From the NCBI RefSeq assembly GCF_025602895.1, contig NW_026516277.1, positions 62,001 through 126,000 of the forward strand: a stretch of DNA of 64,000 nucleotides, given 5' to 3'. Made by a program: the position numbers and the translations under genes. The notes under the pieces are model-generated. The model worked only from the letters and a program-made list of their open reading frames with translations. It was not told the origin of the DNA and searched no databases. The DNA is from Polychytrium aggregatum. Taxonomy: Eukaryota; Chytridiomycota; Chytridiomycetes; Polychytriales. The number at the start of each line of letters is the position of its first letter. Within the stretch, counting starts at the first letter, position 1. This document shows, piece by piece, positions 10,494 through 57,975 of the stretch.

Positions 10494-10896
10494 AACAGCT
10501 CGCAGCCCACCGATACAAACACTGCGAGCCCTGTGTTGATGAAAGTGTCGTCCGGGTTACTTTCGTTTGCATTCCCCCCCCTCCACACACACCAGTGCTG
10601 GCGGTGTGGTTCAGTCGACACTCTCTGCTCCTTCGTCGTGCGGCTGAGCATCCTCGTCGAGACGCACTGAGATTGTTACCGACTGCTCGCAAACAAATCG
10701 TCAACATCGGCACAACAAATATCGCCTCCCTGTGCTCCTGCCCGCCGCACACCCATACATCTGCGACACCTCGCCCTGCCCCCGACTCGATATCGGTGGT
10801 CTCCACAGACTTTCTCGCCATATAACCGTTCGATATCTTTATCCAGTGCCCTTCCCCACCGCCCTCATCCTTAGACTTTCTCTCCCGCACCCCGCG

Positions 10897-12081
10897 ATGG
10901 TCTTTTCAATCGCCAAAAGACTTGTCGACCTCAAACCCGCACCCACGATGCCTGTAGCTTTTGGAGCGCTCCCGTCCGAGCTCTTGATCCAGATTCTGTC
11001 GCTGCTTCCCACCGCCCAGCTGCTCCGCCTGCGTCGGGCATCGGTTCTGTTTCTGCGCCTGTGCGAGTTTTTGATTCTGCGCAAGCTTCAAATCCTCCCT
11101 GCCCCGTTCTTTCGAGACTTGCGGCCCGGCTGCGACCCCGGTTCCTTGCCCGGCCCCGGCTGCGACAGCACCGCTTTGCCGGCCACAACCAAGAGCCATA
11201 CCAAGGGCTGTCCAGGCCCGGCCTCTCCCGTCACCATCACGCTGCACTTTACCGACTCGGATGGTGCCCGGCAGTTCACCGTCGACCTCGTCCTTTCGCA
11301 CTACGACCCGCGCTACTGGCGTGCGTGTGAGTTCAGGGTCAAGAAGAAAGTTGCCCGATGGGTCCTCGACGAGCCAACGTGCATCCCCGTCCTCTATGGT
11401 ATCACGGCCTCGGAGTGCCCGTTCTTGACCGAGCTCGAGGAGTGGCGAGATATGCAGCTGTACATTGAAAAGTGCCGCTCGAACCCACTGCGGGCCTCCA
11501 ATGGCCAGCGCCGCAAGTGCGGTCTCTTTGAGATCATGAAGTCGCAGTCAGGCTCGACCTTTTCGTCCTGCAGCTCGCTTGGCTCAACCTCATCGACCCT
11601 CGTCAATGTCGACAATCAGGAGCTGCTGTGGCACTACCTCGACATCAAAACGTGCGGACCCAAGTGTCTGGCCCCCACGTCCGACCAGGGATTTACATCG
11701 GGCCCGGCGGCACCAGCTTCGATCGAGACCCTGCGAGTTGCGCCCTGGAAGTTTGAGTACCTCATCCGCCATCCGACCCGAGGCGGGGCCTTTCCCACGG
11801 GCTCCAACGGCGCCGAGAGACTCATGTGGGCCAGCTCCTGGACTTGCACCGTCGGCTTCCTCGTGGGTCTATACCTCCAGGGCGCCGTCCAAACCAAGGT
11901 CAAGCCGCGCACGGCCGAGAAGCACAATCGCATCAAGATCATTGTGTGTCGTGTTTTTGACACTTGTCGCCAGCTCGCCAAGGTCGGCAAGGCCGTGAAT
12001 GTGGCCCGAGAGGCCGAGCGACAGACCGACAAAAGACGATCCGGCCCCTTTGGCTGGGTCTCGCCTCCTCGAGGAGGCTGA
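10897..12081 (+). CDS. F-box protein
   Basis: A single-exon gene of 394 residues. Near the N-terminus, residues about 17-55 (FGALPSELLIQILSLLPTAQ, then LLRLRRASVLFLRL) form a clear F-box, the motif that docks substrate adaptors onto Skp1 in SCF ubiquitin ligases. The rest has no LRR, WD40 or Kelch repeats that I can see. It contains Cys-rich low-complexity (PGCDPGSLPGPGCDS), a folded-looking region around YDPRYWRACEFRVKKKVARW, and a possible hydrophobic stretch at WTCTVGFLVGLYLQGAV. The frame is open upstream of the ATG, but that part resembles pyrimidine-rich 5' UTR, and this ATG starts the first ordered segment. The substrate is unknown. Confidence 0.7.
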   Translation: MVFSIAKRLVDLKPAPTMPVAFGALPSELLIQILSLLPTAQLLRLRRASVLFLRLCEFLILRKLQILPAPFFRDLRPGCDPGSLPGPGCDSTALPATTKSHTKGCPGPASPVTITLHFTDSDGARQFTVDLVLSHYDPRYWRACEFRVKKKVARWVLDEPTCIPVLYGITASECPFLTELEEWRDMQLYIEKCRSNPLRASNGQRRKCGLFEIMKSQSGSTFSSCSSLGSTSSTLVNVDNQELLWHYLDIKTCGPKCLAPTSDQGFTSGPAAPASIETLRVAPWKFEYLIRHPTRGGAFPTGSNGAERLMWASSWTCTVGFLVGLYLQGAVQTKVKPRTAEKHNRIKIIVCRVFDTCRQLAKVGKAVNVAREAERQTDKRRSGPFGWVSPPRGG

Positions 12082-45040: not shown

Positions 45041-45620
45041 TTACTGCTGCGAGTTGAAACTCCAGCACTGCAAGAGGGCGCGATAGAGGAAAAGTTAGCG
45101 ACATACTGCGTGAGCAACAAGGTGAGAGCAAAGGCAGGATGCAGCCGGTGCAGACAGACACCCGTGAGGTCGGCGGCCCATGGAGGGAAACGCGGTACCA
45201 ATCACAACCGCGCAGGAGCAGACGGGATGGCACACGAGAGAACGCTAATGTGGGGCGCACTGTCTGGGGAGTGCGGAAGACATGCTTACCGGGTTTGTCG
45301 AGTTGGGGACAGAGAATCCGTCCGCGACGGCAGGGACGAGCGACGATGGCACCGAAGTACTGGACACCATCGAGATGCCGGGCTGGCCATACAGGGCGCT
45401 GCCAGAGGAAGACTGGGCGTTGTACACCTGGCTGGTGTAGCCCGACGTCTTGGCGGAGTAGCCGTTGGAGACTTCGGCGCGGTAGGAGCCCTGGGTCGAG
45501 GCTTGGGTAGCGCTGCCCTTGTAGGTGCCGTAGGCGTCGTCGTATTGGCTTGCGGGATATGGATACAGAGTTTGGGAGAGAGATGAGGCATGTTGCTGCT
45601 GCTGTGATTGCTGCTGCGAT

Positions 45621-45652
<32 letters not shown>

Positions 45653-46795
45653 CTGATCGGACGAGTAGATGCTCGAGGGCTGGACCAGGCCGCTCTGGGG
45701 CTGGGCGACCGAGGGACGGTAGCCCGGGTACGAGGAGTAGGTGCCGAGTGCGGAGGCATACGAATCCTGCTGGCCAGGATAGGGAGCCATGTACTGAGGC
45801 GGATACTGCGAGGCGATCTGGCCGGAAAGATTGCCGGTCTCAGCGGCCTGGGGCGGATAGGCCATGGCGCCGTCGTAGGGGCCGCTGGGGGTGGCATAGG
45901 GTACAGAATAGGGGCTGGACCGGGTGCGCTGCTGCTGGAAGCGCTGGGCGGCAGGGTGGTGATCGGATCGGTAGTAGCCGGCACCAGAGGCCTGAGCCTG
46001 GCCGACAAAGCCTGGATCGGCAGGCTTGCGATGGGCGGTGCTGATGGGCGAGCCGCGCTGGATGTCGCCCTGGGCAGCAGAGGGGTAGACGTGCTGGGGC
46101 TGAGGGGAGAAGTGCGGCTCAATGTTGCTCATGAGCGGCGAGGGATAGTGGGCATACGGGTGCATCATGGGCATGCCGGCCATCTGCGACTGATTCGAAT
46201 CCAGGGGCCGTGATGGGCCGCCGTTGATGGGGTGCTTGCCGGGGGTGGAAGGCGTGCGCACGGCCGTGTTGGGGGCAGGCTCGGGAGCCTTCTTCTTGGT
46301 GGGGGTGTATCGATAGCCAGGGTACTTTTTCTGGTGCTCGAGCCGACCCTGGTTGGCCTTGTTCTTGTAGAATTCCTTGATCTCGGGGGGCTCGGAATGC
46401 CACTGCTTGGCAATGATCTTGCAGGCATCCTTGCTGCTGGCGCCGGGGTTGTCGGCGAGGGTGCTCTGCAGCTTGTCGGCACGGTAGGTCATGAAGCTGT
46501 TGGCCGGGCGAGGAATGCGCTTGGGCTTCTGGGCGGCAGCAGCGGCAGACTTGTCGGCAGGCTTTGCCGGGGGCTTGCCAGCCGAGGATGCGCCGGCCGA
46601 GGAGACGGAATGAGGTCCTTTGGAGCCATCGAGAGCCGGGGCGGCCGTTGTGGTGGGAGCGGAACTGCCGGCGGGTGACTGGGCAAAGTAGTGCGAGGGA
46701 GTGGACGAGGAGGGCGACGAGGCGAGCATATGGGGATTGACAGCGCCAAGATCAGACGATCGCCAGTCCTGCGAGGAGGCTGTGGCCGAGTACAT
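45041..46795 (-). CDS. MATA-type HMG-box transcription factor with polyglutamine tract
   Basis: Two exons, 46795-45290 and 45067-45041, with a GTAAGC donor and CTCTTGCAG acceptor, give 510 residues. The last exon adds only CWSFNSQQ. Residues about 80-160 form an HMG box of the MATA_HMG class: PKRIPRPANSFMTYRADKLQ, SKDACKIIAKQWHSEPPEIK, FYKNKANQGRLEHQKKYPGY, RYTPTKKK. IPRPANSFMxYR and the W-H-x-E-P core are typical of sequence-specific fungal regulators such as Ste11, Rox1 and MAT HMG proteins. N- and C-terminal parts are Ser/Pro/Tyr/Gln-rich, with a Gln run encoded at about 45598-45660 (CTG/TTG on the plus strand). Nuclear activator or repressor role inferred; targets unknown. Flanking genes are not those of known fungal sex loci. 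Confidence 0.85.
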
Positions 46796-48740
46796 GACAG
46801 ATGATGAACGGAAAAGTTGAAGGGATAGAGACGGGGGTGGATGCGATCGGAATGAAGGAGGAGGACACAGAGACTGGATGGATACAGCGCCTGGGGCTCG
46901 AATGAAGGCAGAGGAAGAGACGAGGGAGACAGCGACAAAGCACAGGCGGGTGGTGATCGGGAGGAGACTGTGGGCACGCTCAGGACCAGGGCACAACGGC
47001 AGAACTTGAGGCAACCAGAGAGTAGGCAGAGACGAAGGCTCCTTGTAAGGCGAAAAGAAGGCGATGAGATTCCGAGGGAAGGCGGCCGAGGGCACCGGCT
47101 GGAGGGGACGGATAGGAGGACAGGGATGCTCTGGAGATGGGGGTTGGTGACGACCTTGAGGGCGACGAGGAACTGCAGCGATTAGTGATGGGATGAGGAT
47201 GGGTGGCAAAGGGAGGAGGTCCTTTAGTTCTTGTCGAGAGAAATGAAAGAAAAGGGGGATGGGAGGGAGCAATGGGCAGCGAAACGACGAGCTGAGCAAG
47301 GATGAAAGAGAGAAAGGCCGGCGACGGTACGGGAGGGCCGAGAAAAGGGCGGGGAGGGGGCCAGGAACAGAGGCGGGTGAGCAGCAGAGAGCAGGACGAG
47401 AAGAGGACAGCGCTTGCTGGGCGGGGAAGGCAACAAAGAAGGGGGGGGCCTTGAGACGAACCTGGGAGGAGGACGGTGACAATGCATTCAAGGGCAAGAA
47501 GGAGCAATCCGGCCAAGGCCGGCCCAGGTGGCTTATAAACGGGCGAGGCCACAGCGAAAAAAAGCGCAGGAGGAGGCGGGCGAGAGGCGAGACGAGGTGG
47601 GTGGTCCAGCCACAGCGGAACTGAGCCGTGTTTGGAGCGGGGCGGGTGCGCGGACCGCGGGCGTGTGCGACGGTGCGGGGGAGTGGGGCTTGGCGTTGGC
47701 TGTGTGGGCTGTGAGTGTGAGTGTGAGTGTGAGCTGTGAGCTGTGCGAGTGCGAGTGCGAGTGCGAGTGTGAGTGTGAGCTCTACAAATGTGAGCTGTGC
47801 GAGCCCTCAGCGCTGCTTCCAAAGCAACAACCACTGCCGCTGCCACTGCGGCAACGGCAACGGCAACGGCAGCCGCCGTGTTTGACCCCAACAGAGGCCA
47901 CCAGGCGCCATGGGGCTGCGGTCACGCTCCCACACAAACAGCGCGATGCCCCAAATGGACCCAGCCCGATGCGTGTGTGCTGCCTGCGTGGCTTCGCGCT
48001 CGGTGCGACACTGTCCTCTGTGTTGCCCTGCTGAGCCGTGTGTGCGACGCTGTCCTGACACCGGCACATGTTCACACAAATAGTCGGACAGCCACAAGCA
48101 CAAACACCGACACAGACACACAGGCACTGCGGATGCTGCTGCCACAGTCCCACTGCTGCCACGGCACGACATTCGTGTGACCGAGACGCTGCGCCGCATC
48201 ATGTGCGCGTTGTTGCTGCCCCACGTGTCGTCGCTTGACCCGTCATCTGCCGAGCATCCGTACCGGGGCTTGCTGCGACAAGGGCCCCGTGCAACCGACC
48301 GGACAACATTGGCCTTACATTGCCGGCCCACACACCCCAGCCACGCCTGCACACAGTCGCTGGTGTGTTGCAGGCAAGGGGCGCTGGTGCGCGGGCGCCA
48401 CGCCTCGCACAAGGCTGTACCCGCGGAGCAAGGGCGTCCTGCCTGTGCGACGCCGCTGCTCTCGGCGCTTCTCGCCCGCGCTCTCGCTCCTCGCCCCACT
48501 CGCGGGTGCGTGTCGGTCACGCGCACCTGTGGCCACCACGTGCGCGCAGCATTCCGGCTTCCCTCCGGCTGCCCGGAAAATCTGGGGCTGCTCTGTGTCA
48601 TCCCAGATCGCCGAGCGGTGGCGCGGTGCCGCTTCCGAGCCCCGTTGCGCATCCCAGCCGCCAGCCCCAGCGCATCCCAAAACCCATCGCCTCGATATTC
48701 TCCCTCGGCCCGCATCTGCTCATCGCCCATCCGCCGCAGC
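46796..48740. promoter_or_regulatory. Divergent intergenic region, HMG-box gene and TTC36
   Basis: Nearly 2 kb between outward-facing starts. GTGAGT/GCGAGT hexamer repeats run 47707-47782, and CGGCAA/CTGCCG repeats run about 47837-47872. No exon with family resemblance was found. Overlapping open frames on both strands reflect repeats and GC bias. Confidence 0.5.
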
Positions 48741-50560: not shown

Positions 50561-53500
50561 CTAGTTCTTCTTGGCATCTTCCTTCAGGCCAACCGTTCGG
50601 TTGACAACATATCGCCCCTTCTTCACGTCCGAATCGGGGTCGACGCTAAAGTAGCCCACACGCACAAACTGGAACGAGTCCTCAATGCGGGCGCCGCGGA
50701 TGCCGATCTCGGCGTATGCCTCGGGGATGACGCTGAGCGAGTCTGGGTTGATGTCGGCCAGCCAGCCGTCGGGGTTGTCGGCGGGGTTCGAGTGCTTGAA
50801 CAGGTTGCTGTACAGGTTCACCTGGACCTTGACGGGACTGTTGTGCTTCTTGGACTCGCCCACCCAGTGGATGTAGGTCTTGGGCTTCTTGAAGTCGGCC
50901 TTGCTGTTCTCGTATGTTGCGAGAATCTCCACGATCCGGCCACTCGAGTCCTTGACCACCTTGTTGGCCGTGATCGGGAAGGGCACGTTCAGCAGGCCCA
51001 CGGACTTGCCCGGCGCCAGGCGGTAAAAGTTGGGATCGTCTTGCTCGCGGAAATCCGAGGCGTCAATGTAAACTGTCTTGGAGAATGGGACGGTGTGCGA
51101 GCCCATGGACTCGTCGCGGGGCTTGTTGGCCACGGTCACTTCCTCAAGGTAGTCGTCGCTCAGGTTGGTCAGCGTGATCTTGAGGGGCTCCAGCAACACC
51201 ATGAGACGCGGGGCCACATCGTTGAGGTGATCGCGCACATAGTTCTCGAGGCGCTCGACAGGGATGACTGTGTTTGAAGTCGTCACGCCCAGCTCGCGCA
51301 CAAAGGCGTTGATGGCTGTGGCCGGGAAGCCTCGGCGGCGCAGACCAGGGAGTGTGTACAGGCGCGGGTCGTCCCAGCCGCCGACGATGCCTTCGTCCAC
51401 AAGCTTGGTGATCTTGCGCTTGGACAGCACCGTGTTGGTGATGTTGAGTCGACCGTACTCCCACTGCACGGGCTTGTACAGCTCCAGGGCGTCAACGAGC
51501 CAGTAGTATGACTCGCGCGACAGCTGGAACTCGACCGTGCAGAGCGAATGGGTGATATCCTCAAACGAGTCGCACAGACAGTGTGTGTAGTCGTAGGTCG
51601 GATAGACGCACCACGCGTTGCCGGTGCGGTGGTGCGGGGTGAACATCACACGGTAAGCGACCAGGTCCCAGAACTGGGGGTTAGGGTTCTGCATGTCCAT
51701 CTTCATGCGCAAGATCGCCTCGCCCTCGCCATAGCGGCCCTCCTTCATCTTGACAAACTCGCGGACCGACTCGTCAACGGGGCGGCTGCGATGCGCGCAT
51801 TCGATGCGGGGATTGGCCTCGCGCATCGCGTGGATCTCTTCGCCAGTGCAGTGGCAGACGTAAGCCTTGTCGCGCTTAATCAGCTCGACAGCCAGATCGT
51901 ACAGCCGCTGGAAGTGGTCGGACGAATATGTGATCGCACTGGGCTCAAAGCCAAGCCACTTGATGGTCTCCAGGATCGACACAAAGTATTTCTCCTCCTC
52001 GGCCTCGGGATTGGTGTCGTCGTAGCGAAGGTTGGTGATGCCTTCGTGGGCAAGGGCATACCCAAAGTTGATGTTGATGGCCTTGGCGTGACCAATGTGC
52101 AGGAATCCGTTGGGCTCGGGAGGGAATCGGGTCACAACCTTGCCGCCCGTGCGCTTGAGATGCTCCTCCATCAGCTTGGGATGGATCTGGGGATTGCCTC
52201 CGGGCTTGTGCAGGCGCGCAAGCTCGCCCTCGAAGACGTACTTGAGGCTCTTGGCCGCCTCGGCAACCCGGCCTTCCTTGGACGCGGCGGCGGCGGTCTC
52301 GGTCTTGGCCTGCTTCTCTTTGGTTGCCGCAGCAGGGGCTTTGACGTCTTTCTTCTCGGCCTTTTTCTGTTGTCCGGACAACCCCCACATGCAGAATCGT
52401 TTGCCGTTATTGTTCGGTTCCGGAGGAGGACGCAGCCGCGTGTTGGAAAGATATGGTGGATGGCCATGGGTTGGAAAGGATGTCAATGGATTATTGATCT
52501 ACGCAGAACACATCAACACAAACATGCGTCCGGAGCCTCCCCATCAAGCCAGCGGAAGGTCGCTGATCGTGCCAGGGGCGAGCGTGTCTGCTCGCCATAC
52601 CCCATTCGCTGATCATCGTCCTGACTCGCATAAAGTGCTCTGTGCTGCCCCTCTCGGCACTCGAGAGTACACTAACCTTGGCCTTGGGGTCGTCGCGCTC
52701 GTCCTTCGGACCCAGAATCTGGAGCACTTGCTTGTCAATCTCCTCCTTCACGGCAACCGAGCTGGCCCATCGGAGTTCGGGCGTCTGACGCAGACCGCTG
52801 ATCAGAGAGCCGAGCATCTGGTACCGCTTCTGCTCGAGCTCTTCTCGTCGCTCTTCAATAAACTTGGTGACGGTCTCAACAATCTCCTGCTGGGTAACGA
52901 CGATACCTGGCCGACAAGGAGCACATGAAGGCGTCAGCATGCCGAGTCCGAACAACCTATGCACTGGTCGCGACGCCCCAGGAGTGGCTCGGAACGCAGG
53001 CACATACCCACGCCACAGGCGGCATCGAACTCGCCGTCGTCGATATCTCCCTTGGCGGCTTCGGCAAACTTGATGGCCGCTGGAGGGACAAGATCAGCAG
53101 AGGTTAGAACGAGAGAACATAGATTGAATACGTTCTTGAGGACCCTCCATTGGACAGGACCGATCAGGATGGGATCTAACTGGACCCATCGTCGAACATC
53201 AATCCCATCGACACCAGCACAGTTGACCATGGCTTCCATCGATGGAGGACACGCGGATCGGTGGTGGCGAGTGGCAAGAGCCGAGATCGACATGCACCGC
53301 GGAGATCTGCCTGTACAGATCTGGGCCAGGAGCAGCAACTTGCCTGAGACCTGATCGTTGGTGGTCAGACGAGCGTCCCGCACGGCTCGGGCAAGGTACG
53401 GGAGATGGGCAACGGCATTTTTGGTGACCGTCGATGCGAGGTTGTAGTAGAGAGCTCCAACCGACTTTTCGACTCCAGTCTCTGCGCCGCCCTGGAGTTG

Positions 53501-53736
53501 GGGCAACAGGACATGCGTCAGCAGACCGAGACGGAAGGTGCCTCGAAGTGGAAATTGACAAAGGGCACCCTTGCAGTCCGCCGGCGTGTCCACCCGCCTC
53601 GATCGCTCTTGCGACGGCTCACCTCCTTGATGACCAGAACCAGGTTCGGAGAGAGCTTCTTGTTGGCAGCCGTCTCCTTTGCCTTCTGCTCAGAGAGACC
53701 GATGGCCTGAAAAAGCGCAACAGCGTCGTCGGACAT
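50561..53736 (-). CDS. Glutaminyl-tRNA synthetase (cytosolic)
   Basis: Five exons, 53736-53623, 53491-53344, 53079-53008, 52906-52677 and 52366-50561, join in phase to give 789 residues. The first four exons encode the eukaryotic N-terminal helical domain (MSDDAVALFQAIGLSEQKAK, GALYYNLASTVTKNAVAHLP, VVTQQEIVETVTKFIEERRE), then a Lys/Ala-rich linker. The class I catalytic core has FPPEPNGFLHIGHAKAININ (HIGH motif), YDDTNPEAEEEKYF, AYVCHCTGEEI, YPTYDYTHCLCDSFEDITHS and VLSKRKI (KMSKS-loop variant). It ends with the beta-barrel anticodon-binding domains (RVGYFSVDPDSDVKKGRYVV). It charges tRNA-Gln for cytosolic translation. Intron 2 uses a GC donor (TCAG|GCAAGT). A Fanzor transposon lies 183 bp upstream of the ATG. 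Confidence 0.95.
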
Positions 53737-53918
53737 GGCTTCAGATGAATTGCAGGATATTGTGCAGGGGCTCGGGGGCGAGGCGGGACGGTGCGATACG
53801 GTGCGATGCGATGCGATGCGGTGCGATGCAATGCGATCGGATGGGTATGTTCGATCTGCTGGGGGGCTGCCGCTCTTTTTGAGGGTCGGCTGTCTCGTCA
53901 CAAGCCCGGTTCGAGTGA

Positions 53919-54194
53919 CACTATGAAAAAATTTCTTGTTAAAAAAATGAGCGAGAACGAAACAACGCGCTCTCGGAGCCACCTCGGTCGGCGAGAAGAG
54001 CAGTCTCTGGCGAGAAGCCTCTCGCCGTCACACGCACACACACTTTGCACAAGGGAGTCAAACACCTCCCATCGACCATCCCGAGGGATGGCAACCCCGA
54101 AGTGGACTGCCCAGAATATGGGCGACCCGGCATCCACTGTCGAAATGCACAAGGAACAAGATGCTTACAGTCTATCCAGAAAGAAACGGGACAG
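53919..54194 (-). ncRNA. Candidate Fanzor guide-RNA (omega/fRNA) scaffold region
   Basis: 276 bp lie between the Fanzor stop and the transposon end, the position where TnpB and Fanzor elements make their guide RNA. The scaffold is read in the gene's direction and the guide runs out past the element's end. The first about 163 bp from the end are kept in the 285-bp element despite loss of all coding sequence. They contain a perfect 7-bp hairpin, GGCGAGA-AGCC-TCTCGCC (54009-54026), also perfect in the small copy. If the model holds, the guide here would start TCACTCGAACCGGGCTTGTG (reverse complement of 53899-53918). This is inference from position and conservation only. Confidence 0.4.
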
Positions 54195-56759
54195 TCACTT
54201 TCTGGCTTCTGAAGCCCGCTGACTGACTTGTAGGCCCAGCGGGCAGGCCGTGAGATTGTTTCCCGTCCTGGTTGGCAATCTCTTTGTTTTGGTTGGTTTC
54301 GGGAGCACAGTCTTGAATAGACCCGGCCGATCTCCTGTGGCGATGATCGACTGGCATACCGAGATCATGTTCCTGGCTGCATTGATGTCTCGATCCCACA
54401 GCGTATGGCAGCTTGCACAGCTCCGGACAAAGTGTGGTTTCTCGATATCAAGATGCTCGGGTGACTCGAGTCGCTTGGCTTCCCGGCAATGTGAGCACAC
54501 CTGGGATGTGTTGAACTCGTTCACCGAGCACACATGGATCTTGGAGACGGATTGGTCTGGTGGTCGTCTCTGGTGGTGGTGGAACTGCTCGAAATACTTG
54601 GCAAACCTGAGTCTCCGTGGGCTGGAAGCATATCCCTTCCCCTGTTTCCAGGATGCATTCCCAAAGGCAATCACCACTTCGGTCTCCCTTGGTGCCTGGT
54701 CAATGACTTGCTTGCACATCTCGTGGACGGTGCGCTGTCGCTTGCCGTGGAGATCGAGTCGCTTGAATCGCCGTCGCCGGGTCAGGCTGAAGTACAGCTG
54801 TTTGTCCAGCATGTCTCCATCGAACACATGGCGAATGTATCGCAGGAAGGAAGCCAACCCAGGGATCTTGGGACTTGGTGTGGTGCTCATCCATTGCTGC
54901 AGATCAAGGTTCTTGTGGGTGCTCTGTATCCACTTGGTCGCCTGGGTGGTGCCACATCGATGCTGGTACTCCTTGTTGGAGAACGACACAATCTTCTCGT
55001 TGGCGCGCTGTGCCTTGGTCACCTTGACACCGTCTTGCTCCTGGATGGATGGTTGACTGGGTGCTCGAATGACAGCGGCGAAGATCGATCCCACTCCAGG
55101 GTCGATCCCAATCCATGTGGTCCGAGAGTCGTCAATGGGACCGACCCTGGTCTGGATCCTCTGCTCGGGGGTGAGCTTGGGTGTCTTGTCCTCGGTTTTT
55201 GGCTTGGCATCAGGATCCTTCTTCAGGATCTTGTACCTGAGTGTGGTGATCGAGCACCCGACCCCATCGGTGGTGATCTCGCAACCAAAGAGCTGCTTCC
55301 CTTCCTCCCTGGCACCAAAGAGTCTCGGATCCAGCTTGAAGTTGGTCTGCCAGAAGGTCTCTTGCTTTGTGGTGCCATTGACCTTGGTCTTCAGGTCGTC
55401 CCACTTGAGACCAGTGCCAGTCTGGTATCCAAGGATTTCCCACAGTGCTTTGGTGTCGAGCTTGACATACTTTGCTCTGGCATCGCAGAGCGGGACCAAG
55501 GTGCACTGTGCTCGAGGGACATTGTGTCGCTTCTTGGTCTGGGCAAGCCGGTCGGTGAGGCGCTTGATCCGTTTCATGTTGATGGTGATCTGCTTGTCCA
55601 CCTCCTCGTGCTGGGTCTGGAGATCTTTGAGTCTGTCAGCCCCGATGTGGTGGATGGGTTGACACATTTCCTCGTTCAGTCGTCCACGCTCTCCTTTCAG
55701 AACATCGGTATCCCTCACGAGCCTGGGAATGATCATCTTCTGAAAGACCACCATGAAGAGGGCCTCCTTCAGGTGGGTCAGGCGAGAGACCTCACTGGCC
55801 AGAATTGGTACGACTTTGTACAGGTCCTGGTGGCTTTCGTACCGAAACTCATACAACTGGTCGGCATGGTGGGCGAAGGATTTTCTCAGATCACCGAGGA
55901 GTGTCTTGGAGAGGGGATTCTCCATCAGCTTCATACACTCATCGACGTGTGTATGACGTTTCACATCCTTGGGAGCAACCAGGACCAAATTGCAGTATCG
56001 GCGTAGAAGGGACCAATACCGATCGAGAATATGGGTCTCGCAGTTGACAGCATAGGTCTTGACAGCCAAACCAAGGACCTGTGAACCAGTACCCTTTGGG
56101 AGGGCCACTGGAGGCAGGATACACGTCTCACTCCATGCACGTCGATACAGCTCATATGTGTCGAGGAGGTGCCTGTCATCTTCTGGGGTGTTTGTCCTGG
56201 CACCCACTGTTCCTGTCTGCACCATACTGAAGCACTTTCGAACAAACGCGGGTTCACTCGACGACACAGTGGGGAGGGTGATGCCCTCGTCCAAGCACCG
56301 CCTGAAATGCAGCTCCAGGAGTCGAGATGCTTCGTACTGCACTTGAGTCATGGCTCGGACAGTCTCCTCGATCTTGTCGTGCAAGGTGTCGTTCTTGATG
56401 ATGGCATCGAGAGTGCACTTGACGGTGGAGTAGTCGGCCTTGACTTGCTCGTTTGGGCCACAGTCAGGCAAGGTAGAGCTCCAGAGTGGGTTCTTCTTGG
56501 TACACAATGAACTGTTGCTTCTGGCATGACCCTCTTGCTTGCACGTGGCACATACAGGGACCTTGGGTGCTTGGCTGACCATTTCAGCGACCGAGGCAGG
56601 GCTGCTGTCGATTCTGGCTGTGCACTTCTTGGTGAAGGGTTTGACATGGTTGGTCAGGCCACAGGCACGACACGATTTGATGACGGGTTTCTTGGCCACA
56701 GGAGAATCATTGGGTGATCCCGGGTCGGGATCGGGGGGTGTCTTTCTCTTGGGAGCCAT
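54195..56759 (-). CDS. Fanzor RNA-guided nuclease (TnpB-like), intact
   Basis: A single uninterrupted exon of 854 residues, starting MAPKRKTPPDPDPGSPNDSP. The frame is open 60 bp further, but only from a GTG. After a basic, Pro-rich leader come two CX2CX4HX7C zinc knuckles (residues 30-46 and 70-86). A long helical region follows, with IKRLTDRLAQTKKRH typical of the recognition lobe. The RuvC nuclease has TWIGIDPGVGSIFAAVI (Asp553), VVIAFGNASW (the canonical Glu position is Gly700), SVNEFNTSQVCSHC (Glu748) and LWDRDINAARNM (Asp791), with a CX2C...CX2C finger at 755-784. Fanzors are eukaryotic homologues of IS200/IS605 TnpB, and tested members are RNA-guided DNA nucleases. Introns are absent although neighbours have many, as expected for transposon cargo. 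Activity of this protein is inferred. Confidence 0.93.
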   Translation of the reverse strand: MAPKRKTPPDPDPGSPNDSPVAKKPVIKSCRACGLTNHVKPFTKKCTARIDSSPASVAEMVSQAPKVPVCATCKQEGHARSNSSLCTKKNPLWSSTLPDCGPNEQVKADYSTVKCTLDAIIKNDTLHDKIEETVRAMTQVQYEASRLLELHFRRCLDEGITLPTVSSSEPAFVRKCFSMVQTGTVGARTNTPEDDRHLLDTYELYRRAWSETCILPPVALPKGTGSQVLGLAVKTYAVNCETHILDRYWSLLRRYCNLVLVAPKDVKRHTHVDECMKLMENPLSKTLLGDLRKSFAHHADQLYEFRYESHQDLYKVVPILASEVSRLTHLKEALFMVVFQKMIIPRLVRDTDVLKGERGRLNEEMCQPIHHIGADRLKDLQTQHEEVDKQITINMKRIKRLTDRLAQTKKRHNVPRAQCTLVPLCDARAKYVKLDTKALWEILGYQTGTGLKWDDLKTKVNGTTKQETFWQTNFKLDPRLFGAREEGKQLFGCEITTDGVGCSITTLRYKILKKDPDAKPKTEDKTPKLTPEQRIQTRVGPIDDSRTTWIGIDPGVGSIFAAVIRAPSQPSIQEQDGVKVTKAQRANEKIVSFSNKEYQHRCGTTQATKWIQSTHKNLDLQQWMSTTPSPKIPGLASFLRYIRHVFDGDMLDKQLYFSLTRRRRFKRLDLHGKRQRTVHEMCKQVIDQAPRETEVVIAFGNASWKQGKGYASSPRRLRFAKYFEQFHHHQRRPPDQSVSKIHVCSVNEFNTSQVCSHCREAKRLESPEHLDIEKPHFVRSCASCHTLWDRDINAARNMISVCQSIIATGDRPGLFKTVLPKPTKTKRLPTRTGNNLTACPLGLQVSQRASEARK

Positions 56760-57117
56760 CTGGCGAGAAAATAGCAGCGATGGCTGGTTCTTGTCAGGAA
56801 CGGAGCTGGACTTTGGCACCAGACAGCTGATGGTAGTCGAACGGACGGTCGTAGGACGAAGGGGAGTGTATTCAATAGGCTAAGGGCAGGATACAAGAGG
56901 CAAGGTGAGGTGCTGGTTCTGAGGCCACAGCACCTCGTTTATATCTCTAAACGCCGTCCTTGTTCGCCGCAGATTTTTCTTCCACTACAAAGGAGATTGG
57001 TTATCTGCGACGGGGGGATATTAGATCCGAACGTTTCCCTCGCCCGCCGGGAGGTTTCATGTCAGTGCCTTACCCAACATTGCACATCAAGGAAACAGGA
57101 CACGGGTTGGGGCGCCC

Positions 57118-57299
57118 ATGAAACCATCCACCGGGCGTGGGAACGCGGTTCATGACAGTTCTGCCCTTGGGGAAGAAAAATTCTCCTCAAAACCAGCGCA
57201 TTTTGGGCTGGCAGAGATACTGCGCAGTGGCGTCCTTGATTCAGATCCAGAAACGCATCGCTCGCTCAATCAGTCGTGGGAAGACATCTTGTCAAGGTG
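57118..57299 (+). other. Possible exon on the opposite strand inside the Fanzor element
   Basis: A frame from an ATG at 57118 reads DSSALGEEKFSSKPAHFGLA and EILRSGVLDSDPETHRSLNQ, and ends SWEDILS at an excellent donor AG|GTGAGTCT. Residue composition looks protein-like. No matching downstream exon is certain (a TTGACTAG acceptor lies at about 57360), and an overlapping frame reaching 57571 is equally open. It could be a remnant of a lost partner gene or chance. Confidence 0.25.
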
Positions 57300-57607
57300 A
57301 GTCTTGCCTGATAGCCAAACGATCATGTCATCTCGCTGACACACAGCCACGCTTGACTAGGTTTCCAACCAGAGAGATTCAGATGGTGGTGGTTCTTGTC
57401 CGCAATCGGAGTGGAGCTTCCAACAATGATACAATTGGTCATTCCTCCACACCAATCGCCCACCACCACCGTCAATCGGCTCAAGGTGATACCAAATGCC
57501 GTCAACCGACCATGGCCGGATTCCAACTTTTGCTGCGCCACATACAACGTGACTTTCAGGTGCCGAGATGAGCAGCCACGAGGGGGCCGGAAAAATTGAT
57601 AGTGTGA

Positions 57608-57975
57608 GTCAGGCGGATGTGCGCAGCAGGCTGGCCGGCGTGACTGAGACAGCAACGAACCGACAACCACAACGCAGCGGAGCAGCCGTATCGCAGTGTA
57701 TTTGCAGATCAACGCAATGCATGTGTGTGCTGGCATGATCCTGTCTGCTTGTGCAGCGACATTTGGCAAGCAATCAATCACATGTCCCTGTCGGCTATCG
57801 AGGGAGCGACAGCCCGGAAGCCGCCGACGGCATGGCAAAAGCGCGGAGATTGCCCGACATCATCTCCGAAGCTTGCTGGCGAGGCGCCAAAGTGGATGAG
57901 CGAGCTGCTTGAATCGGATAGCCCGTGGCCGTGCAGTCACCACCCGACGCTGCGCGATCATGAAAGCAGTAGCCA
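57608..57975. other. Short intergenic stretch right of the transposon
   Basis: No gene recognised between the element's duplication and the 3' end of the coiled-coil gene. Confidence 0.5.

Follow-up and report, generated by a model that had tools for sequence, protein, structure and literature searches.

The closest described relatives of the element reported here are non-autonomous transposons with Fanzor1 as their only gene. Spu-1 of Spizellomyces punctatus occurs, between inverted ends, as many full copies and as gene-less 'ghost' copies with similar ends, and no transposase is reported for it (PMC3627910, PMC10432273). The bases adjacent to its insertions are conserved and match the target-adjacent motif (TAM): CATA is the TAM of SpuFz1, and a conserved CA adjoins the element (PMC10432273). 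The SfAV-type Fanzor1 elements of ascoviruses and other insect viruses are also non-autonomous with short inverted ends, and it has been proposed that their target-site duplication (TSD) enters the RNA scaffold (PMC10711439). The natural role of Fanzor was called unknown in Saito 2023 (PMC10432273). Here we describe a family of such elements in Polychytrium aggregatum (assembly GCF_025602895.1), starting from one copy in a 64,000-nucleotide stretch of contig NW_026516277.1 (positions 62,001 to 126,000, forward strand), which is called the window below and provides all coordinates unless another contig is named. The window copy is a 3,686-bp element (53919–57604) with CACTAT...ATAGTG ends between two TGA duplications (53916–53918 and 57605–57607), and it carries an uninterrupted gene for an 854-residue Fanzor1-like RNA-guided nuclease (54195–56759, minus strand; ATG at 56759, stop codon at 54195–54197). 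The sequence-only reading had given the coordinates of the element with its duplications, as well as its termini, and had named the Fanzor as the sole clear cargo, with no transposase; all of this was borne out, and seven other frames in or across the element (113–490 amino acids) have no Pfam family match.

Members of the family share ends flanked by duplications, and many have an intact Fanzor gene under purifying selection. The target motif is one-sided, insertion sites are occupied on both haplotypes, some members are deletion derivatives, and dispersed copies have exchanged tracts in mosaic fashion. Spu-1 has 30–33-bp inverted repeats, putative TA duplications, a 75-nt scaffold and a 633-residue protein, whereas the window family has 6-bp CACTAT ends, 3-bp duplications, a 276-nt candidate RNA region, a protein of 854 residues and exchange among copies. 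The SfAV type differs in its TTAN 4-bp duplications, 13-bp ends and viral host (PMC3627910). With its shared ends, one-sided target motif and pieces swapped among copies, the family is well suited to testing what role Fanzor plays for a transposon.

The window copy begins with CACTATGAAAAAATTT at 53919 (left end, 53919–53934, plus strand) and runs to TTGATAGTG at 57604, where the right end AAAAATTGATAGTG occupies 57591–57604 (plus strand). The left-end pattern has 135 matches in the genome (at most one mismatch) and the right-end pattern has 90, with none for the reversed control in either case; a search for other copies with the same ends had been proposed from the sequence alone, and the ends do recur. 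Pairing 100 of the 135 left ends with all 90 right ends at distances of up to 12 kb gives at least 55 elements, the largest of 3,876 bp, and leaves 45 left and 35 right ends without a partner. These 55 comprise 18 known Fanzor copies, seven more elements of 3.35–3.77 kb (five contain a scored Fanzor place), 26 of 1.5–2.2 kb and four of 270–295 bp. A DNA search for the element returned 70 matches; 37 of 1,354 candidates were scored, and of the 37 places fetched 30 hold complete copies. Both canonical ends are present in 26 of the 30 (25 of 29 besides the window copy), while L023/L025 start with CACAAT and L026/L027 finish with ATAGTT. Two long forms are seen, of 3.69–3.88 kb and 3.33–3.43 kb, and the difference is 366 bp upstream of the gene, in the 845-bp region that includes the right end (56760–57604) and is shortened in the ~3.4-kb form. 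One or both ends are missing from L041, L042/L045, L043/L044 and L036/L039, which were excluded from the divergence and linkage counts below. Dispersed, nonallelic copies are 90%–97% identical (median 93.3%, 190 pairs).

The shorter members are deletion derivatives. L046 (1.6 kb) is an internal deletion that retains the C-terminal part of Fanzor, and L047 (270 bp) retains the two ends only. The deletion junction, which joins element positions 1033 and 2815, is identical in all three short forms read (L046 and the partners of L019 and L024). On the evidence of these three, independent in situ deletions were rejected as the origin of the 1.5–1.6-kb forms, and the shared junction implies that a common short form has taken the place of the long form at certain sites.

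A protein search scored 53 Fanzor places out of 1,626 candidates. About ten of these belong to a second subfamily, 77%–87% identical to the window protein and with a break near residue 58 (for example C72:72624-75005, C63:32153-34537, C326:1062-3446, C5:144806-147190 and C96:14038-16425); it may have other ends, since contigs C72, C63, C326, C5 and C96 carry none of the ends listed for pairing.

Contigs of this assembly pair with near-identical flanks, and C373 and C135 share three sites in order (L023/L025, L026/L027 and L030/L031); the assembly holds two haplotypes of a diploid genome. Merging alleles leaves 47 independent sites, 44 of them two-ended (L041, L036/L039 and L042/L045 count in the 47 and fall outside the 44; L043/L044 are in neither), with sites known only as 18-base stretches paired by their 16-bp flanks at up to three mismatches. 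Twenty-five of the 47 were seen twice, and the joined 80-bp flanks of eight of the 22 singly seen sites added two partners (L029 with C402, L034 with C413). The 47 sites are made up of 27 filled on both haplotypes, six without a partner in the assembly and 14 outside the 80-bp test, and none was seen empty. A comparison for empty sites had also been proposed in the sequence-only reading; among the eight sites probed in the assembly with 80-bp flanks, none is empty. In four of the 27 filled pairs, a long form lies opposite a 1.5–1.6-kb form (L019/C378, L024/C166, C268:326351/C413:142832 and L034/C413:153206).

The window copy is itself present on both haplotypes (L009 and L010), with two substitutions in 2,450 flank bases, and the closest copy at a different site is 5.1% different. 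A recent insertion of this copy was rejected on these two facts. The earlier suggestion of recent movement finds no support, both haplotypes being filled, other-site copies at least 5.1% different and none of the eight probed sites empty; the intact frame that had been taken as its sign is not special, as in 17 of the 53 scored Fanzor places an unbroken frame starts by residue 5 and reaches at least residue 830.

The elements differ far more between haplotypes than the DNA around them. In ten allelic pairs complete on both sides, the flanks differ at 31 of 24,462 positions (0.127%) and the elements at 615 of 35,355 (1.74%), which is 13.7-fold higher; allelic element divergence spans 0 to 4.55%. 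At 490 of the 615 differing sites, each of the two variants is also present in two or more further copies, and 73 sites have a private variant. L025 is only 0.12% from L030, which lies at another site, compared to 3.29% from its own allele L023. In eight of the ten pairs, the two allelic copies are each other's nearest relatives among all loci. Among 20 dispersed copies, one per site (367 polymorphic sites), linkage disequilibrium (LD, as r2) is 0.46 at distances up to 20 bp, 0.14 at 21–50 bp and 0.058 at 51–100 bp, and 82% of site pairs at 51–100 bp have all four gametes. As a guard against assembly noise, the analysis was repeated with only those positions at which the two haplotypes agree (10 sites, 93 polymorphisms); r2 is then 0.72, 0.36 and 0.24, followed by 0.15–0.19, which is a little higher than the floor of 0.11. 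Linkage among dispersed copies is near background within 100–200 bp. This decay with distance indicates that short tracts pass between the dispersed copies nearly as they would in a sexual population.

Insertion sites have a consistent structure. The duplication is an exact 3 bp at 31 of the 44 two-ended sites, compared to 0.75 expected by chance; one further site has an exact 4 bp, two are exact at 2 bp only and six have one mismatch in 3 bp. TGA is the most frequent type (nine sites), followed by CAA (four), CGA, GGA, ATG and ATA (three each), GTA (two) and four others seen once each. The right flank is strongly biased: A or G occupies position +3 in 41 of 45 sites, G or T occupies +4 in 42 of 45 (42 of the 44 two-ended sites), and C or T is favored at +5 and +6 (p 0.004 and 0.0008, respectively). 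In the left flank past the TSD, by comparison, no position from -4 to -10 falls under p 0.067, and random flipping of orientation matches the observed asymmetry in 0.0011 of 20,000 trials. Read on the Fanzor strand, the motif is 5'-RRMTMN, directly 5' of the element; in the window it is GACTCA (57605–57610, minus strand). The TAM of TnpB and Fanzor systems is found on the 5' side, and their guide is taken from the opposite flank. The motif is on the side expected for a TAM, and the guide-side flank is free of it. On the guide side of a filled site, the three bases ahead of the duplication are GTG instead of RRM, and a TAM-like motif would therefore be broken there. These features agree with a TAM role for RRMTMN but fall short of proof. 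Further Fanzor TAMs are given in a 2024 Cell paper.

The protein has the expected features of a Fanzor1. Pfam Cas12f1-like_TNB matches it above its cut-off (E 1.1e-9), and the NCBIfam models TnpB and Cas12f match weakly near the C-terminus, far under theirs. The Fanzor1 motif D-X(125-275)-[TS][TS]-XX-C4 zinc finger-X(5-50)-RD, as defined in PMC3627910, is present as D553, T751 S752, C755 C758 C781 C784 and R790 D791, with 197 residues from D553 to T751. D553, T751, S752, C758 and C781 are invariant in 14 aligned copies; the departures are C755 to S in L034, loss of the RD end in L012 and L040, and QD in L011. Two other Fanzor1 features described in PMC10711439, the TDG motif of the WED domain and DPG, are found at 497–499 and at 552 (as IDPG, with D553 in DPG). 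E724, invariant in the 14 copies, precedes D791 by 67 residues and may be the alternative RuvC-II glutamate, judging by E541 and D606 of SpuFz1, which are 65 apart. Neither the whole protein nor its alignment matched the PDB (phmmer and profile search), and the C-terminal part alone gave weak matches (E 0.02 to 0.65) to Cas12m, TnpB-like L79, LaTranC and a transposase. A phage search returned 29 records, ten of which, among the matches listed, have 29.4% identity over residues 674–798; in viral contigs, none of 23 pattern matches was confirmed. The N-terminal part (56400–56759, minus strand) has two weak CCHC-like zinc-knuckle patterns, with C..C at residues 30 and 70 and a zf-CCHC match over residues 69–78 that is under the cut-off (E 0.009).

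Many of the intact Fanzor genes are under purifying selection. For the 14 copies that have long open frames, 91 pairwise comparisons give a median ratio of nonsynonymous to synonymous divergence (dN/dS) of 0.35 (range 0.23–0.47; median dN 0.065, dS 0.186). The 14 include one pair of alleles (L009 and L010) and two copies truncated at the C-terminus (L012 and L040). A ratio this low implies that Fanzor has some function.

A guide RNA may be encoded next to the gene. The proposed guide RNA (fRNA, or omega RNA) region extends for 276 nt from the Fanzor stop codon to the end of the element (53919–54194, minus strand), and on this strand the element's left end would form the 3' end of the scaffold. 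Its fold has an energy of -104.6 kcal/mol (z -3.70), equaled by none of 200 shuffles, and the last bases of the element pair near the start of the region. Diversity among copies is 2.5%–2.6% in the first 200 bp, the side of the proposed guide RNA, compared to 3%–14% in the gene; upstream of the gene, seven of eight successive 100-bp segments have 0.4%–4.3%, and the final one has 8.0%. The predicted guide, beginning CTCGAACCGGGC, would be 15–20 nt of host flank read outward past the TSD (53896–53915, minus strand), a length borrowed from SpuFz1 and SfAV (PMC10432273, PMC10711439). A GT/GTGCAAA microsatellite lies inside the region (about 54028–54053; alignment columns 155–225), and its length varies widely among copies. 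An Rfam search of the window gave no match.

Taken together, these observations lead us to favor, tentatively, a reading in which this is a non-autonomous, CACTAT-ended DNA transposon family with Fanzor1 as its only recognizable gene, whose elements are recopied, with template switching, by double-strand-break repair. The ends would be recognized, and the element moved, by a transposase that acts in trans and probably belongs to the CACTA/Mirage/Chapaev group. An RNA of the minus strand running off the left end (53919–54194 plus host flank) would act as the guide RNA; a guide copied from its own flank would direct each copy to the place of its own insertion as soon as this stands empty. RRMTMN on the 5' side of the gene would be the TAM and would adjoin the guide match in empty sites alone, so that filled sites, where the motif is broken, would be spared. 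Fanzor would then cut the emptied or empty site, and repair from the element-bearing chromosome would restore the element. Switching of the polymerase among copies that are 90%–97% identical during this repair could produce both the patchwork and the swaps of long for short forms, with flanks unchanged. The proposed logic resembles that of IS200/IS605 and IS607 elements with TnpB, in which the guide is copied from the flank, the TAM lies on the opposite side and the nuclease acts on the emptied site; the window family differs in being eukaryotic and in having inverted ends, duplications and no tnpA partner. That Fanzor makes the breaks behind the repair is plausible, though not proved. The full proposal, that Fanzor makes a cut-and-paste transposon self-restoring and is the cause of a family that behaves as a freely recombining population with tracts of ~50–200 bp, goes further and is more doubtful. 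The family allows Fanzor's role to be tested directly within one genome: a TAM is predicted, many guides have known targets, two haplotypes are available, some sites hold a long form opposite a short one, and exchange can be measured.

Several results weigh against this reading. For six of the eight sites tested with 80-bp flanks the second haplotype is absent from the assembly. The evidence that empty sites are lacking thus comes chiefly from the 27 sites, and 25 of these were recognized through seeing both filled copies. A 29-mer search for empty sites, covering 44 sites, recovered only one of four controls. In the consensus fold of 27 copies (of 29 prepared regions, L019 and L041 being excluded) the element end is unpaired, and none of 78 pairs changes on both sides, although missing covariation says little among copies this similar. 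Shorter pieces fold less convincingly: a 135-nt piece does not stand out from its shuffles (z -0.56, 47 of 200), and two 150-nt pieces of L029 have z of -1.98 and -1.07. Two of the ten allelic pairs are nearly or fully identical (0.14% and 0), and the mosaic and linkage analysis covers the Fanzor family alone. By coordinate comparison with the 55 end pairs, none of the 29 places in the genome with a Transposase_21 domain (PF02992) is inside a pair. The motif is carried by 18 of 19 short-form-only sites, compared to 24 of 26 other sites, and it could therefore be caused by the transposase.

This last point speaks for the main rival, in which Fanzor is a passenger for both repair and targeting: the unlike ends of the element (left CACTATGAAA, right CACTATCAAT) would let a trans-acting transposase read the target one-sidedly, and the mosaics would come from repair of excision gaps or from ordinary gene conversion. 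Gaps left by P elements are repaired from dispersed copies, and interrupted gap repair typically yields deletion derivatives, which are present here; the two ends do differ, and the short-form-only sites share the target motif. Such an account is quite possible; against it stand the purifying selection on Fanzor, which points to some function, and the position of the motif on the side expected for a TAM. A different concern is that consensus building or polishing blended reads of copies 90%–97% identical and so created the mosaics. The pattern is patchy and confined to the repeat, as blending would make it. We consider this improbable, however, because the LD decay persists where two separately assembled haplotypes agree, because allelic copies are mutually closest in eight of ten pairs, which random mixing would not give, and because long and short forms are on separate contigs with matching flanks; the 37 loci checked contain no N.

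The class of the carrier is a separate question. CACTAT stands at both ends and recurs in the genome, as in CACTA/CACTG-type termini. CACTA/EnSpm elements make 2- to 3-bp duplications and have terminal repeats of at least 10 bp and arrays of subterminal repeats. The CACT termini and 3-bp duplications of the window family agree with this, whereas its perfect terminal inverted repeat spans just 6 bp, the element ends yielded no family of subterminal repeats of 12 bp or more, and the element has no recognizable transposase. That such ends and duplications are diagnostic of CACTA/EnSpm, as claimed from the sequence alone, was thus overstated: both recur across the family, but the label comes from them alone, as no transposase with these ends was found. 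An autonomous EnSpm transposase with these termini, which had been named as something to look for, is absent from the 55 end pairs. PF02992 places all lie elsewhere (28 of the 29 are over the cut-off, and none is in the window's contig), and a search for DUF4218 gave no match, with its control silent too. The PF02992 exons form a repeated family (for example C46:163745, C113:318046 and C201:122238), and an EnSpm-type element has probably multiplied in this genome, since several copies share score and open frame length.

The carrier might instead belong to Chapaev, PIF/Harbinger, a Transib/RAG-like group or an undescribed group with short inverted ends. PIF/Harbinger elements make 3-bp duplications, and Transib/ProtoRAG elements have a CACWATG-type heptamer and 5-bp duplications. 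The left end CACTATG resembles this heptamer and the right end CACTATC does not fit it; duplications of 5 bp or more, which Transib would lead one to expect, are seen at none of the 44 sites. The short perfect repeat, the lack of subterminal repeats and the lack of a transposase between such ends speak for a carrier other than CACTA, and a Harbinger transposase is found inside three Mucor Fanzor elements (PMC3627910). We nonetheless regard it as rather unlikely, as CACT ends with 3-bp duplications fit CACTA best and the genome does contain PF02992 transposases. Described Fanzor carriers include Mariner, Sola, IS4-type, Helitron, MuDr and unassigned elements in PMC3627910 (Bao and Jurka 2013), in whose main text the words CACTA and EnSpm are absent, and hAT, Mariner, Crypton and Helitron in PMC10711439 (NAR 2023). 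In the literature searched, which does not extend to the 2023 Science Advances Fanzor survey, no paper was found with Fanzor and CACTA together. Fanzor and EnSpm occur together there in a single work, on Auxenochlorella, which mentions the EnSpm-Plavaka family and a Fanzor element (uncharacterised) apart from each other.

The window copy lies upstream of a host gene for glutaminyl-tRNA synthetase, 182 bp from its start codon and with Fanzor on the same strand. The 5' end of this gene is at 52937–53736 (minus strand; body to 50561), with matches to PF04558 and tRNA-synt_1c. Its closest PDB relatives are enzymes of 817–818 residues, ahead of others of 776–799 residues, which we take to be the yeast and human enzymes, respectively; this ranking suggests a fungal host. 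Elsewhere in the window are a 750-residue HMG-box frame (45248–47497, minus strand; E 1.9e-14) and an F-box-like protein with a borderline score (10732–12078, plus strand).

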